64,000 nucleotides of DNA. It comes from Acidimicrobiaceae bacterium. Its GTDB lineage: Bacteria; Actinomycetota; Acidimicrobiia; Acidimicrobiales; RAAP-2. The translations under genes and the position numbers were made by a program. The notes under the pieces are model-generated. The model ran no database searches. It was not told the origin of the DNA and worked only from the letters and a program-made list of their open reading frames with translations. Location of the stretch: assembly GCA_027315045.1 (NCBI GenBank), contig DAHUZS010000114.1:1-64000 (forward strand). The letters run 5' to 3'. Shown piece by piece: positions 26,196 through 31,169 of the stretch. Positions within the stretch are counted from its first letter, which is position 1. Each line of letters begins with the position of its first letter.

Positions 26196-27046
26196 GGGGA
26201 GCCGGAGTGTTGGCCGAGGCCCGCCAGAGGAAGGGGGACGGGTTCGACGTGGCCATCGACCCCCGCTTCGACGCCCGGCGCCAACAGGTGCGCCGGCGCA
26301 GCACGACGCGCCGGCGGGTCCTGCTCGGGCTGCTCGCGCTGGTGAGCCTCCTCGCCGCCTCGGCGTGGCCCCTCTTGCACTCCCGGTACTTCTCGGCCCG
26401 GGTCCTCAGCGTGACCGGCAACACCCACACCCCGAGCGCGACGATCCTGTCGGCAGCCGGGCTGGCCGATCACCCGCCGATGATCGACGTGCACCCGTCG
26501 GCGGTCGTGGCGGCACTGCGCAACCTGCCGTGGGTGGCCAGCGCCAGCGTGGCGCTGCACTGGCCCGACGGGGTCGCGCTCAGCGTGACCGAGCGGGTCC
26601 CGGTGGCCTTCGTGCTCGAGGGGTCGCGCGTCGCCGAGGTGGACGCCACCGGCCGGGTCCTGGCGCTGGTCGCCTCGGCGCCGAGCGGCTTGGTCCAGCT
26701 GGTCTCGGTCGGGACCCCCGGGGCCCCGGGGACCACCGTCGCCCCGGCGGCCCCGGCGCTCGAGGTGCTCGACGCCCTCCCGGTGGCCCTGCAGGGGTTG
26801 GTGACCGCGGCGGCGCCGACGTCGAGCGGCGGGGTGGACCTGGCGCTGTCGGACGGGGTGGGGGTGCGCTTCGGCCCCCCCCGCCAGCTCCAGGCGAAGT
26901 TCGAGGACATCGCGTCGGTGGTGGCGGGCGCGTCGCTCGCCGCCGGTTCGCTGCTCGATGTGACCGTGCCCACCTACCCGGCGGTCACCCCGCCCCCCTC
27001 GAGCGGCGGCTCGGCCCCGGCGACGACCGGCACGACGTCGGGTTGA
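26192..27046 (+). CDS. ftsQ: Cell division protein FtsQ
   Basis: Bitopic division protein linking early and late divisome parts, 284 aa. Cytosolic basic N-terminus (about 45 residues, RRQQVRRRSTTRRR), one transmembrane helix (about 46-65), then a POTRA domain starting SARVLSVTGNTHTPSATIL and the FtsQ beta domain with LRNLPWVASASVALHWPDGVALSVTER. The C-terminus is a low-complexity Pro/Ser/Thr/Gly tail of about 25 residues. GTG 26192 overlaps the murB stop. It is the last gene before the ftsZ promoter region. Confidence 0.9.
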   Translation: MRGAGVLAEARQRKGDGFDVAIDPRFDARRQQVRRRSTTRRRVLLGLLALVSLLAASAWPLLHSRYFSARVLSVTGNTHTPSATILSAAGLADHPPMIDVHPSAVVAALRNLPWVASASVALHWPDGVALSVTERVPVAFVLEGSRVAEVDATGRVLALVASAPSGLVQLVSVGTPGAPGTTVAPAAPALEVLDALPVALQGLVTAAAPTSSGGVDLALSDGVGVRFGPPRQLQAKFEDIASVVAGASLAAGSLLDVTVPTYPAVTPPPSSGGSAPATTGTTSG

Positions 27047-27068: not shown

Positions 27069-27180
27069 TTGACCCCGATTAGGCCGTTCGCCTAACCTGG
27101 CACCCCGGCAAGTCGGGGCCCACCTCCACCCTCGATCTCAGGTTGAGATCGCGCCCAATCGGCGAGGGGTGCAGTATCCT
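27069..27180 (+). promoter_or_regulatory. ftsZ promoter and structured leader
   Basis: TTGACC (27069-27074), an 18-nt spacer and TAACCT (27093-27098) form a likely promoter. TTAGGC-N5-GCCTAA (27079-27095) overlaps the -10 box and looks like an operator. The leader then holds a CCCCG-N6-CGGGG hairpin (27103-27118) and the perfect GATCTCA-GGT-TGAGATC repeat (27134-27150). A second -10-like TATCCT is at 27175-27180. Confidence 0.6.
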
Positions 27181-27246
27181 GGCCCCTACGAGGGGGTGCA
27201 CACCAATGGCACGGAACAGGCGACCCTTGCAGCACCCCATGAGCTC

Positions 27247-28353
27247 ATGACCCTCGGTCCGCAGAACAGCTACCTCGCCGTCATCAAGGTGGTGGGGATC
27301 GGCGGGGGCGGGGTGAACGCCGTCAACCGGATGATCGACGCCGGCCTTCGCAACGTCGAGTTCATCGCCGCCAACACCGACGCCCAGGCGTTGCTCATGA
27401 GCGACGCCGACCTGAAACTCGACATCGGCCGCACCCTCACCCGGGGGCTCGGGGCCGGCAGCGATCCGGAGATCGGCCGCCAGGCGGCCGAGGAGCACCG
27501 CAGCGAGATCGAAGAGGCGCTCAACGGGGCCGACATGGTGTTCATCACCGCTGGCGAGGGCGGGGGCACCGGCACCGGTGGGGCGCCGCTCGTGGCCGAA
27601 GTGGCCAAGGCGCTCGGGGCGGTGACCATCGGCGTCGTCACCCGGCCGTTCACCTTCGAGGGCCGGACCCGGGCCATGCAGGCCGAGAAGGGCATCCAGG
27701 TCTTAAAGGAGAAGGTCGACACCCTGATCGTCATCCCCAACGACCGGCTCCTCACGGTGTCCAACGAGAAGACCTCGATGGTCAACGCGTTCCGGATCGC
27801 CGACGAGGTGCTGCTCCAGGGGGTCCGGGGGATCACCGACCTCATCACGGTGCCCGGCCTCATCAACACCGACTTCGCCGACGTGAAGATGATCATGTCC
27901 AACGCCGGCACCGCCATCATGGGGATCGGCAGCGCGAGTGGCGACGGCCGGGCCGTCACCGCGGCCCGGGCCGCGATCACGAGCCCGCTGCTCGAGGCGT
28001 CCATCGAGGGCGCCCGGGGGATCCTGCTCAACATCGTCGGCGGCAACGACCTCGGCCTCTTCGAGGTGAACGAGGCGGCCGAGATCATCCACTCGGTGGC
28101 CCACCCCGACGCCAACATCATCTTCGGCGCCGTCATCGACGAGAACATGGCCGACGAGGTCCAGGTGACCGTCATCGCGGCGGGGTTCGAGCGCTGGGAG
28201 GGGGTGGGCCGGGGGTCCAAGGCCATGGACGCCGGTGCGAGCGTCGTCGGCGCCCGGACCTCCCCCACCCCGGTCGACATCTTCGCCGACGCCGAGGACG
28301 ACGACATCGAGCTCGGCGACGACGACTTCGACGTCCCGTCGTTCCTCCGCTAG
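27247..28353 (+). CDS. ftsZ: Cell division GTPase FtsZ
   Basis: Tubulin-like GTPase that forms the Z-ring, about 368 aa. It opens [23 protein letters not shown], has the GTP signature GGGTGTG at about 105-111, [10 protein letters not shown], the T7 loop region [15 protein letters not shown], and a C-terminal peptide [11 protein letters not shown] that binds partners such as SepF and FtsW. ATG 27247 matches the usual family start but has no Shine-Dalgarno. A GTG at 27196, directly after GAGGGG, would add 17 residues and cannot be excluded. The acidic linker is short (about 30 residues). Confidence 0.96.
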
Positions 28354-28383: not shown

Positions 28384-29052
28384 GTGAGCGACCCCGGGTC
28401 CGCCTTCGTCGATCTGCCGGCACGCCTCTCGGCGGTCGTGGCACGGGTCGAGGCGGCCGGGGGCGACCCCGAGCGGGTCTCGGTCGTCGCGGTGACCAAG
28501 GGCTTCGACCCCGACGCGGTCCGCGCCGCCTGGGCCGCCGGGCTGCCTTTGGTGGGGGAGAACTACGCCGCCGAGCTGTTGGCCAAGCGGGCGGCTGCCG
28601 GCCCGGGCCCGCCCGGGAGCCGCTGGCACTTCCTGGGCGCCCTCCAGACCAACAAGATCGCCCGGCTGGCCCCGGCTGTCGACTGCTTCCAGTCGGTGTC
28701 CCGCCTCCTCGAGGGCGAGCGGATCGCCCGGGCCCGGCCCGGGGCCGAGGTGCTGGTCCAGGTGTCGTTCTCCGACGACCCGGCCCGGCCGGGGTGCCCG
28801 CTTTCGGCCGTGCCGGCCCTCGTCCGCGACCTCGCGGGGCTGGGGCTGGCGGTGGCCGGGCTCATGGCGGTGGCCCCGCCCGAACCCGACGGGGCGCGGG
28901 CCGCCTTCCGCAGCGTGCGCGAGCTGGCCGACCGTCTGGGCCTCCCGGTCCGGTCCATGGGAATGACCGAGGATCTGGAGCTGGCGGTGGCCGAGGGCTC
29001 GACCATGGTCCGGATCGGCCGGGCCCTCTTCGGCGACCGGCCGGCCCGGTGA
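28384..29052 (+). CDS. YggS/PLPBP-family pyridoxal-phosphate homeostasis protein
   Basis: PLP-binding TIM-barrel protein of the YggS family, 222 aa, which buffers PLP and affects amino-acid pools rather than having a firm catalytic activity. The PLP lysine is in VVAVTKGFDPDAVRAAW; GENYAAELLAK, HFLGALQTNKIARL, the LMAVAPPEP segment and the phosphate-binding SMGMTEDLELAVAEGSTMVRIGRALFG complete the family set. It usually sits between ftsZ and sepF in actinobacteria, as here. GTG 28384 is 30 bp after ftsZ. Confidence 0.92.
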   Translation: MSDPGSAFVDLPARLSAVVARVEAAGGDPERVSVVAVTKGFDPDAVRAAWAAGLPLVGENYAAELLAKRAAAGPGPPGSRWHFLGALQTNKIARLAPAVDCFQSVSRLLEGERIARARPGAEVLVQVSFSDDPARPGCPLSAVPALVRDLAGLGLAVAGLMAVAPPEPDGARAAFRSVRELADRLGLPVRSMGMTEDLELAVAEGSTMVRIGRALFGDRPAR

Positions 29053-29155
29053 GCCGGCCCGGAAGGGGTGGGGCACCACGCGGCCGGCAGTGTCGGAGGG
29101 GTAACGGTCCCGGGTCGAGCGGAGCGATACGCTGTCAGCAAGGAGACGTGGAGCC

Positions 29156-29704
29156 TTGCCCTCTTTGCTGAAGAAGACGATGGTCTACCTAGGCCTGGTC
29201 GACGACGACTACGACGACTACGCCGACGACTATGAAGAGCGCGGGTCCAGGGCCTTCACGCCGCTGGCCCGGGTGGAGACCCGCAACCCCGAGCGCGACG
29301 AGCCCGAGGGGCGCCCGGTGGTCGCGCAGTCCGGCCGGATCCGGGCGTTACCCCGGGAGAACGGGTCCAACGTGATCCCTGCGGTGCGGCCCCAGGCGGT
29401 GCCCACGGTAGTGCGGCCGTCCGCCGGCGACAGCACCCCCAAGATCGTGGCCCCGACCCGCTTCCCCGACGCCAAGGAGATCGCCGACTGCCTGAAGGCC
29501 AACCGCCCGGTGATCGTGAACCTCCAGGTGGCCGAGCGCGACCTGCAGCGGCGGATGATCGACTTCTGCGCCGGTGTCTCCTACGCCTTGGGCGGGGAGA
29601 TGGAGAAGGTGGCCGAGCAGGTGTTCCTCCTCGCGCCGAGCAACGTGAAGGTGTCCGACGAGGAGCGCCAGCGCCTCCAGGAGCGCAACTTCGGGCGTTA
29701 CTAA
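29156..29704 (+). CDS. sepF: Cell division protein SepF
   Basis: Membrane-associated protein that tethers FtsZ, 182 aa. The N-terminal helix (SLLKKTMVYLGL) is the amphipathic membrane anchor, followed by an Asp/Tyr-rich stretch DDDYDDYADDYEE, a variable linker, and the C-terminal SepF domain from about residue 98 (TRFPDAKEIADCLKANRPVIVNLQ through RRMIDFCAGVSYALGG to VFLLAPSNVKVS). The TTG start at 29156 follows AAGGAGACGTGGAG and keeps the whole membrane helix. Confidence 0.93.
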   Translation: MPSLLKKTMVYLGLVDDDYDDYADDYEERGSRAFTPLARVETRNPERDEPEGRPVVAQSGRIRALPRENGSNVIPAVRPQAVPTVVRPSAGDSTPKIVAPTRFPDAKEIADCLKANRPVIVNLQVAERDLQRRMIDFCAGVSYALGGEMEKVAEQVFLLAPSNVKVSDEERQRLQERNFGRY

Positions 29705-29707
29705 CCG

Positions 29708-29971
29708 GTGATCCAATCGATCCTGGTCGGCCTCGTCGAGGCCTTCGTCGTGGTCCTGATCGTGCGGGCCCTGTTGAGCTGGTTCCCCTCCCACCCCGGG
29801 TCCCCGGTCTTCCGCCTCGAGCGGGCCCTGGGCGTCGTGACCGAGCCGGTGCTCCGCCCGATCCGCCGCCTCCTGCCACCGGTGCGGCTCGGGGCCCAGT
29901 CCCTCGACCTCTCCTTCATCGCGGTGATCCTCATCGCCCAGATCATCGTGATCCCCCTCCTGCGGGCCTAG
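29708..29971 (+). CDS. YggT-family membrane protein
   Basis: Small YggT-family (CCB3-like) protein, 87 aa, with two transmembrane helices (about residues 3-24 and 66-86) flanking the conserved LSWFPSHPGSPVFRLERALGVVTEPVLRPIRRLLPP segment. It lies directly after sepF (3 bp gap), an order conserved from Bacillus (ylmG) to actinobacteria, where the protein affects division-site organisation. GTG start at 29708. A GGGC-TATC-GCCC hairpin soon after the stop could end the transcript. Confidence 0.88.
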   Translation: MIQSILVGLVEAFVVVLIVRALLSWFPSHPGSPVFRLERALGVVTEPVLRPIRRLLPPVRLGAQSLDLSFIAVILIAQIIVIPLLRA

Positions 29972-30365
29972 CGGGGGATTGCGGGCTATCGCCCGACCCG
30001 CTCGATCAGCACCGAGGAGATTTCTTTCAGAAATTCGCGCGACCAGCGCGTTTGTCGACGCGTGGTGCTCGCGATCGGTTGGTGATGGGAGTCTGAGCTC
30101 GACCCTGGCATCGATCATCTCCAAGAAGGTCGGCGGGCACACCTCCTACGACCGGCGCGAGATGACCCGGGTGGGTGGTCATGGGCGTCCTCGAGATGGC
30201 GCACCTCGCCCCCTCGTCTTCGGTCATCGAGCTTGGGGGACTCAAAGGCCCGATGCAGCTGGGAGGACGCGGCTCACCCCAGGGCAAGCCCGGAAACTCC
30301 CGCTAGGCCCCAGAAACGGGCGGGTCGGGCCCCCGGCGGGGCCCGGGAGATAGAGTGGCTCGCCT
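29972..30365. other. Intergenic stretch between the yggT and divIVA genes
   Basis: No convincing gene. It contains a CGGGC-TATC-GCCCG hairpin (29982-29995), possibly a terminator; an ATTTCT-TTC-AGAAAT inverted repeat (30020-30034); and near its right end TAGAGT (30351-30356), a -10 box that would start divIVA transcription a few bases before the ATG. An open frame here (29979-30353) has no family-like sequence and is probably spurious. Confidence 0.5.
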
Positions 30366-31169
30366 ATGGATAGTGGCCAGCCACCCCACCAGCCGATCCT
30401 CGAGACGCTCCGCACGGTCGAGTTCCGGCTTGGCCTGAAGGGCTACAACGTCGACGAGGTCGACGAATACCTCGAGAGGGCGGCGGTCGAGGCCGAACGG
30501 CTCAACGAGCAGTTGCGCCAGAGCGTCGAGCGGCTGCGCCAGGCGACCGAGCGGATCGCCCAGCTCGAGAGCTCCGCCGCGGTTGTTGCCCCCGTCCCGC
30601 CCCCGATGTCCTTGGAGGAGCCGACGGCGGCCATGCCCGCCCCGGTCTCCGACGACACCCTCCACCAGACGCTGCTGCTCGCCCAGCGCTTCGTCGAGCA
30701 GACCAAGCGGGAGAGCGAGGCGGAGGCCCACCGCCTCGTGTCCTCTGCCGAGGACCGGGCGCGCACGCTCATGAGCCGAGCCGAGGACGAGGCGCGCCAG
30801 TTGATGACCGACTCCCAGCAGCGGCTGCGCGACGAGGTGGCCCGCCTGGAGACCATGCGGGCCCAGCTGGCCACCGACGTCGAGAACATGGCGCGCCACT
30901 TGGAGTCGGAGCGCACCCGCCTGCGGACCATGCTCTCGGAGGTCCTCAAGTGGATCGAGGAGAACGTGCAACCGGCCGAGTCGCTGATGGCACTGCGGCC
31001 CCGCGCCGTCGACGGTGGTCGTCAGGCGGCCGGTCGGTTGGGGACCGGCGAGGCCTCCGGGGACCAGTCGGCCGAGCCCTTCAACGCCGAGGCGGCCGAC
31101 AACGTGGCGCAGGTGCTCGACTTGCGGGGTCCGAGCGCCATCACGGTCCCGCCCGACCCCCGCGCCTGA
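30366..31169 (+). CDS. divIVA: DivIVA-domain polar growth/division protein (Wag31-like)
   Basis: Coiled-coil scaffold that marks curved membrane at poles and septa, 267 aa. The DivIVA lipid-binding N-terminal domain is VEFRLGLKGYNVDEVDEYLERAAVEAERL (about 18-46). A Pro-rich spacer of about 25 residues separates it from a long coiled coil (about 105-200). The C-terminus is less ordered. In rod-shaped actinobacteria this protein directs polar wall growth. TAGAGT 9 nt before the ATG suggests a near-leaderless mRNA with no Shine-Dalgarno. Confidence 0.9.
   Translation: MDSGQPPHQPILETLRTVEFRLGLKGYNVDEVDEYLERAAVEAERLNEQLRQSVERLRQATERIAQLESSAAVVAPVPPPMSLEEPTAAMPAPVSDDTLHQTLLLAQRFVEQTKRESEAEAHRLVSSAEDRARTLMSRAEDEARQLMTDSQQRLRDEVARLETMRAQLATDVENMARHLESERTRLRTMLSEVLKWIEENVQPAESLMALRPRAVDGGRQAAGRLGTGEASGDQSAEPFNAEAADNVAQVLDLRGPSAITVPPDPRA

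Follow-up and report, generated by a model that had tools for sequence, protein, structure and literature searches.

The level of FtsZ sets cell division, and the way in which this level is adjusted is poorly known in actinobacteria, where the closest described system is that of FtsR. In Corynebacterium glutamicum, FtsR binds the ftsZ site AACCCTAAAGTAAAGGTTGAGGGTA both in vivo and in vitro, and the corresponding ftsZ site of Mycobacterium tuberculosis, whose regulator is Rv1828, reads AACtCTAAgcctAtGGTTGAGGtTt (Kraxner et al. 2019, PMC6683498). The published neighbours of ftsR are odhI/garA before the gene and a bifunctional nuclease gene after it, followed by a second MerR gene (PMC6683498). 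McdR/Rv1830, likewise a regulator of the MerR type, recognises a motif unlike that of FtsR (PMC9040748). At the level of translation, the nearest described case is ppe2 of M. tuberculosis, which has no Shine-Dalgarno (SD) sequence, shares an AUGA overlap with an SD-led upstream ORF (uORF) and depends on translation of the latter, mainly through termination-reinitiation (PMC11260477).

The ftsQ-ftsZ intergenic region and the leaders compared

The window, a stretch of 64,000 nucleotides of an Acidimicrobiaceae genome (assembly GCA_027315045.1; 2.3 Mb in 147 contigs), harbours a leader that fills the gap between ftsQ and ftsZ (Table 1). All letters and coordinates named in an initial annotation of this leader, as well as the assignment of the downstream gene to ftsZ, were verified. 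The ATG at 27247 is the likeliest ftsZ start codon: the 30 nt preceding it hold no alternative ATG, GTG or TTG, and the GTGs at 27169 and 27196 were rejected, since in relatives L007 and L008 a stop codon closes the ftsZ frame 51 nt upstream. On the 3' side of ftsZ, positions 28384-31166 encode, according to Pfam, a protein with an alanine-racemase N-terminal domain (YggS-like), SepF and DivIVA, an ordinary actinobacterial division cluster.

Seven genomes, that of the window and six relatives, form the genus alignment. The 111 loci first scanned include duplicates (L001 and L002 are both the window; L032 and L007, for example, are the same), and the counts use 94 genomes, with related leaders from separate searches (30 and 64 loci), plus 67 phylum leaders. 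Of the phylum leaders, 40 were selected manually; L238 duplicates L175 and was removed, and L275 had no ftsZ match. An FtsZ tree was built from 38 hand-chosen loci of the 54 loaded. Since related genomes are not independent, all counts below overstate the number of evolutionary events. Contigs L054, L063 and L111 have Acidimicrobiales- or Arthrobacter-like ftsZ regions, with which their titles, Bifidobacterium breve and Sporosarcina beigongshangi, seem not to agree.

Table 1. Features of the ftsQ-ftsZ leader and the ftsR gene (positions in the window unless a locus is given).
Feature	Position	Strand	Remarks
ftsQ	stop ends at 27046		POTRA and FtsQ_DivIB_C domains
P1 promoter, TTGACC-N18-TAACCT	27069-27098 (TTGACC 27069-27074, TAACCT 27093-27098)	+	predicted start ~27105
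TTAGGC-N5-GCCTAA dyad	27079-27095 (arms 27079-27084, 27090-27095)	.	judged non-functional: not conserved
Stem 1, CCCCGGCAAGTCGGGG	27103-27118
Candidate FtsR-type operator (box), CACCCTCGATCTCAGGTTGAGATCG	27127-27151	+	contains perfect dyad 27133-27151; matrix match, conservation, uniqueness
Second dyad, CGATCTCAGGTTGAGATCG	27133-27151		stem 27134-27150 of the initial annotation plus one pair
Putative P2, -10-like TATCCT	27175-27180	+	no -35; predicted start ~27187; box centre ~-48
SD of mini-ORF, GAGGGGG	27190-27196	+	7/7 columns invariant; -10.7 to -14.5 kcal/mol in 7/7 genomes
Mini-ORF, 14 codons	27206-27250	+	ATG 27206; TGA stop overlaps ftsZ start (ATGA)
ftsZ	27247-28353	+	start ATG 27247; own SD absent; TIGR00065, 410.5 bits
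ftsR	L118:1435-2481		NF050798 (NCBIfam equivalog), 235.8 bits against a cut-off of 150

A putative FtsR operator and its regulator

The search for FtsR sites was based on a matrix built from the two published ftsZ sites alone. The best site in the leader is the box at 27127-27151, equalled in one of 100 shuffles in a first run and in none of 100 in a second. The box is a 25-bp inverted repeat of the published type, AACCCT...GGTTGAGGGT, and the region resembles the C. glutamicum FtsR/M. tuberculosis Rv1828 system in this repeat, in the regulator family and in the location of the site between ftsQ and ftsZ (PMC6683498). Within the genus, 24 of its 25 columns are invariant, the lone variable position being a C/G change in L005 and L006. 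The exact core, ACCCTC-N6-AGGTTGAG, has a single match in the whole genome, at the ftsZ leader. With up to two mismatches allowed, the core is found 18 times genome-wide as against 23 times for the reversed control, so that this pattern reveals no wider regulon. A box match at a shuffle p≤0.05 is present in 74 of the 94 related leaders and missing from 20. This share is no census because the set excludes about 25 further genomes of the family, mainly from genus g9 (apparently box-less), and, for want of upstream DNA, the order genome G034.

The ftsR product shows similarity of its C-terminal domain to the M. tuberculosis Rv1828 domain in PDB (E 1.1e-13). As in the published ftsR locus (PMC6683498), an FHA gene and a nuclease gene lie beside it: the former, OdhI-like and 5' of ftsR, scores 159 bits with the OdhI model, short of the cut-off of 200, and the latter, 3' of ftsR, is a bifunctional-nuclease gene recognised by its nuclease domain. 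The nearest further MerR match on the same contig is about 7 kb away. Of 41 genomes, 35 have an FtsR that scores above the cut-off. FtsR is also retained in some genomes whose ftsZ leader has no recognisable box (e.g. L011/G022, L021/G012, L028/G023). That box and FtsR do not disappear together counts against the model proposed below. Co-loss is uninformative as a test because FtsR is kept nearly everywhere. In G014 (L176), the FtsR match (123 bits) falls below the family cut-off, and the ftsZ leader has P1 with no convincing box nearby. All in all, the box is very probably an operator of FtsR.

Position of the box relative to P1 and a putative P2

A promoter scan demanding 9 of 12 matches returned no site, and P1 was judged by conservation instead. 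All six columns of its -35 element are invariant in the seven genus genomes, and the pattern TTGACN-N16-18-TANNNT occurs in 69 of the 94 related leaders as compared to 0.14% of shuffles. The published box centres are at -73 in C. glutamicum and between the -35 and -10 elements in M. tuberculosis (PMC6683498), whereas that of the window lies at ~+34 of P1 and those of its relatives at +26 to +38. Among the 65 box-bearing family and order leaders (p≤0.02), the distance from the predicted P1 start to the downstream box centre is 26-38 nt in 51 (expected 0.00). The same spacing was found for 17 of the 56 box-bearing leaders of the phylum sample (expected 0.01), any such promoter being recognised in 23. 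The box thus usually occupies the first transcribed bases wherever a consensus promoter is found. Relaxing the -35 element to TTG adds further phylum leaders, from Streptomyces-sized and other genomes, with the box at +35 to +42 (L259, L265, L271, L276). Leaders L201 and L206 were scored against this geometry, though a second site at ~+29 is visible by eye.

The box lies not only downstream of P1 but also upstream of the putative P2. In agreement with the initial annotation, which had pointed to a second TATCCT box, all six columns of this element are invariant within the genus. It follows the box at exactly 23 nt in all seven genomes, with 9 of the 23 spacer columns invariant; the P1-to-box spacing in the same genomes varies from 26 to 34. 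This fixed distance to a second -10 element is unlike the published box positions (PMC6683498). More than one promoter before ftsZ, as predicted here, is also a feature of the Streptomyces and mycobacterial ftsZ regions cited there. We infer that the absence of a -35 element at TATCCT fits an activator-dependent promoter. Inspection by eye revealed no P2 in L016, a member of the sister genus.

Other arrangements occur farther afield. In a subclade of the family (L018, L019, L020, L187, L190, L203-L205 and others), the box is situated at -34 to -10 of ftsZ, abutting or overlapping the ribosome-binding site. A downstream promoter cannot fit there, which leaves the upstream promoter alone to transcribe ftsZ; activation of P2 therefore cannot be general, and the subclade points to an ability of FtsR to act on P1 as well. 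In the Mycobacterium-like leaders L280, L284, L288 and L292, TTGACATAAC stands directly 5' of the box, and a -10-like TANCGT without a consensus -35 element is found farther upstream; this arrangement perhaps represents an older two-promoter layout.

A mini-ORF in place of an ftsZ ribosome-binding site

The initial annotation did not include the mini-ORF that ends in the ftsZ start, nor its strong ribosome-binding site. Starting with ATG and ending in the ATGA overlap, it is present in all seven genus genomes with 14 or 15 codons, and likewise in L016, where it begins at -41 with an SD of -8.7 kcal/mol and the own SD of ftsZ amounts to -3.0; in the FtsZ tree, L016 joins the genus with support of 91/86 and a long branch. 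No genome of the genus has an SD of its own for ftsZ (7/7; -3.0 to +1.2 kcal/mol, against a median of -7.4 in the other leaders). Outside the genus, 85 of 87 leaders reach -5 kcal/mol or better; within it, none of the seven does. Leader L170 has a weak ftsZ SD (-3.3) and no such mini-ORF, its start codon perhaps being misjudged. An SD-led mini-ORF ending near the ftsZ start was detected in 15 of the 87 other leaders, 14 of them with a good ftsZ SD, which weighs against the model proposed below. In L009, L012, L013, L014 and L017, which belong to sister genera, a GC-rich hairpin of the GCGATCG-GCCGG-CGATCGC type is located directly 5' of the ftsZ ribosome-binding site, in the place that the mini-ORF occupies in the genus of the window.

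Both the SD (7/7 columns) and the ATG (3/3) of the mini-ORF are invariant within the genus, as compared to 17 of 38 columns in its body. The encoded peptide is thus poorly conserved, and its translation rather than its product would matter. The arrangement resembles uPPE2-ppe2 (PMC11260477) in the SD-less downstream gene, the short out-of-frame SD-led uORF and the AUGA stop/start overlap; it differs in its target, ftsZ being a core division gene, in the lack of a riboswitch, for which the window yields no Rfam match, and in that the dependence is putative here. Coupling of ftsZ translation to the mini-ORF appears probable from these features.

Proposed control of ftsZ and alternative readings

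Taken at its full extent, the proposed model places the supply of FtsZ under control at two levels, transcription and translation. FtsR, a MerR-type regulator, would occupy the box between P1 and the genus-specific P2. Once bound, it would most likely recruit RNA polymerase to P2, for which the position of the box centre and the fixed spacing speak, and would obstruct transcripts from P1, so that FtsR could move the supply of ftsZ from one promoter to the other. In the resulting mRNA, the strong ribosome-binding site would feed the mini-ORF rather than ftsZ, and ribosomes terminating at ATGA would reinitiate on the overlapping ftsZ ATG. We assign this whole account a probability of roughly one in two; it is less sure than either of its halves because these are independent.

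The initial annotation had viewed the leader as a structured control point with an operator-like repeat on the -10 element of P1. That the leader is a control point is very likely, for reasons other than those given there. Of the elements named, the consensus promoter and the conserved TATCCT stood; the -10 repeat, the first stem and an excess of RNA structure did not. The comparison of orthologous ftsZ leaders which it proposed uncovered conserved elements, and so the absence of conservation named there as a counter-argument fails. Although the TTAGGC-N5-GCCTAA dyad is perfect, 17.8% of 2000 dinucleotide shuffles of 27069-27180 contain one or more such dyads with 6-bp arms, as against 0.95% for 8-bp arms, which makes this dyad unremarkable and that at 27133-27151 remarkable. 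Moreover, the former is absent from the six genus relatives, with 0/6 invariant columns in the TTAGGC arm and 3/6 in the GCCTAA arm, and any 6-bp dyad over the P1 -10 element is seen in just two of 68 related P1 promoters, the one of the window included; a repressor acting at this place is hardly conceivable. Of the first stem, 2/16 columns are invariant in the genus. The second stem is a different matter, its sequence being real and conserved. With perfect 8-bp arms and a 3-nt loop within the predicted P1 transcript, it could be regarded as an RNA hairpin, i.e. an attenuator or a protein-binding leader. However, folding of 27105-27260 does not exceed that of shuffles (z -0.17), nor does that of 27187-27270 (z +0.17); a terminator scan and the Rfam search of the window were both empty, and the motif is the same as that of the FtsR-bound sites. 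Since, in addition, the letters themselves are fixed and the single change in L005 and L006 breaks the stem without compensation, the dyad is better understood as a DNA operator, and the RNA interpretation is improbable. A possible helix between the SD of the mini-ORF and GCACCCC before the ftsZ start gave 13 consensus pairs in all and no compensatory changes.

The main rival to a switch between P1 and P2 is repression of P1 alone, with FtsR as a plain repressor that binds ~30 nt beyond the start predicted for P1 and TATCCT being no promoter. Such an action agrees with the P1-box geometry, which is retained even where a second promoter cannot fit, and in C. glutamicum genes other than ftsZ are reported to be possibly repressed by FtsR (PMC6683498). 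On the other hand, FtsR of C. glutamicum activates ftsZ (PMC6683498), and the distance from the box to TATCCT is constant in the genus though the letters between them vary. Repression alone is rather unlikely, and switching between P1 and P2 by FtsR, suggested by this constant distance, is itself put forward tentatively. As regards translation, it may be argued that the mini-ORF is a chance frame and that ftsZ is translated alone from its SD-less start. Actinobacteria translate many genes without an SD, the peptide is poorly conserved, and the TGA is automatic if the second codon of ftsZ begins with A. A chance frame, however, would hardly explain why invariance is concentrated in its SD and ATG, why its length changes in frame only, or why the genomes that carry it are the same that lack an ftsZ SD, otherwise near universal, and it is rather unlikely; translational coupling through the mini-ORF is preferred.

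Implications for ftsZ regulation in Actinomycetota

The main text of Kraxner et al. 2019 (PMC6683498) does not name Acidimicrobiales, and both the P1-box geometry with its fixed box-P2 distance and the SD-less ftsZ with its mini-ORF go beyond it. By titles and the beginnings of abstracts, the papers found on ftsZ with a uORF, a leader peptide or translational coupling describe no such ftsZ leader, and those found on Acidimicrobi with ftsZ or FtsR contain nothing on this subject except the FtsR paper.

If the observations are extended to the whole of Actinomycetota, FtsR might at root be a promoter selector, which hinders P1 and serves a downstream promoter if one is present, rather than a simple upstream activator; in addition, one acidimicrobial lineage may have made FtsZ dependent on reinitiation after loss of the ftsZ ribosome-binding site. 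This generalisation is less probable than the model for the genus. The geometry of P1 and the box, seen in part of the phylum-wide sample, predicts the effect of FtsR on each ftsZ promoter and may explain how ftsZ can be activated in spite of the odd box positions that have been published. If true, a core division gene without a ribosome-binding site of its own, reliant on a mini-ORF, would represent an unusual way of fixing the dosage of FtsZ.
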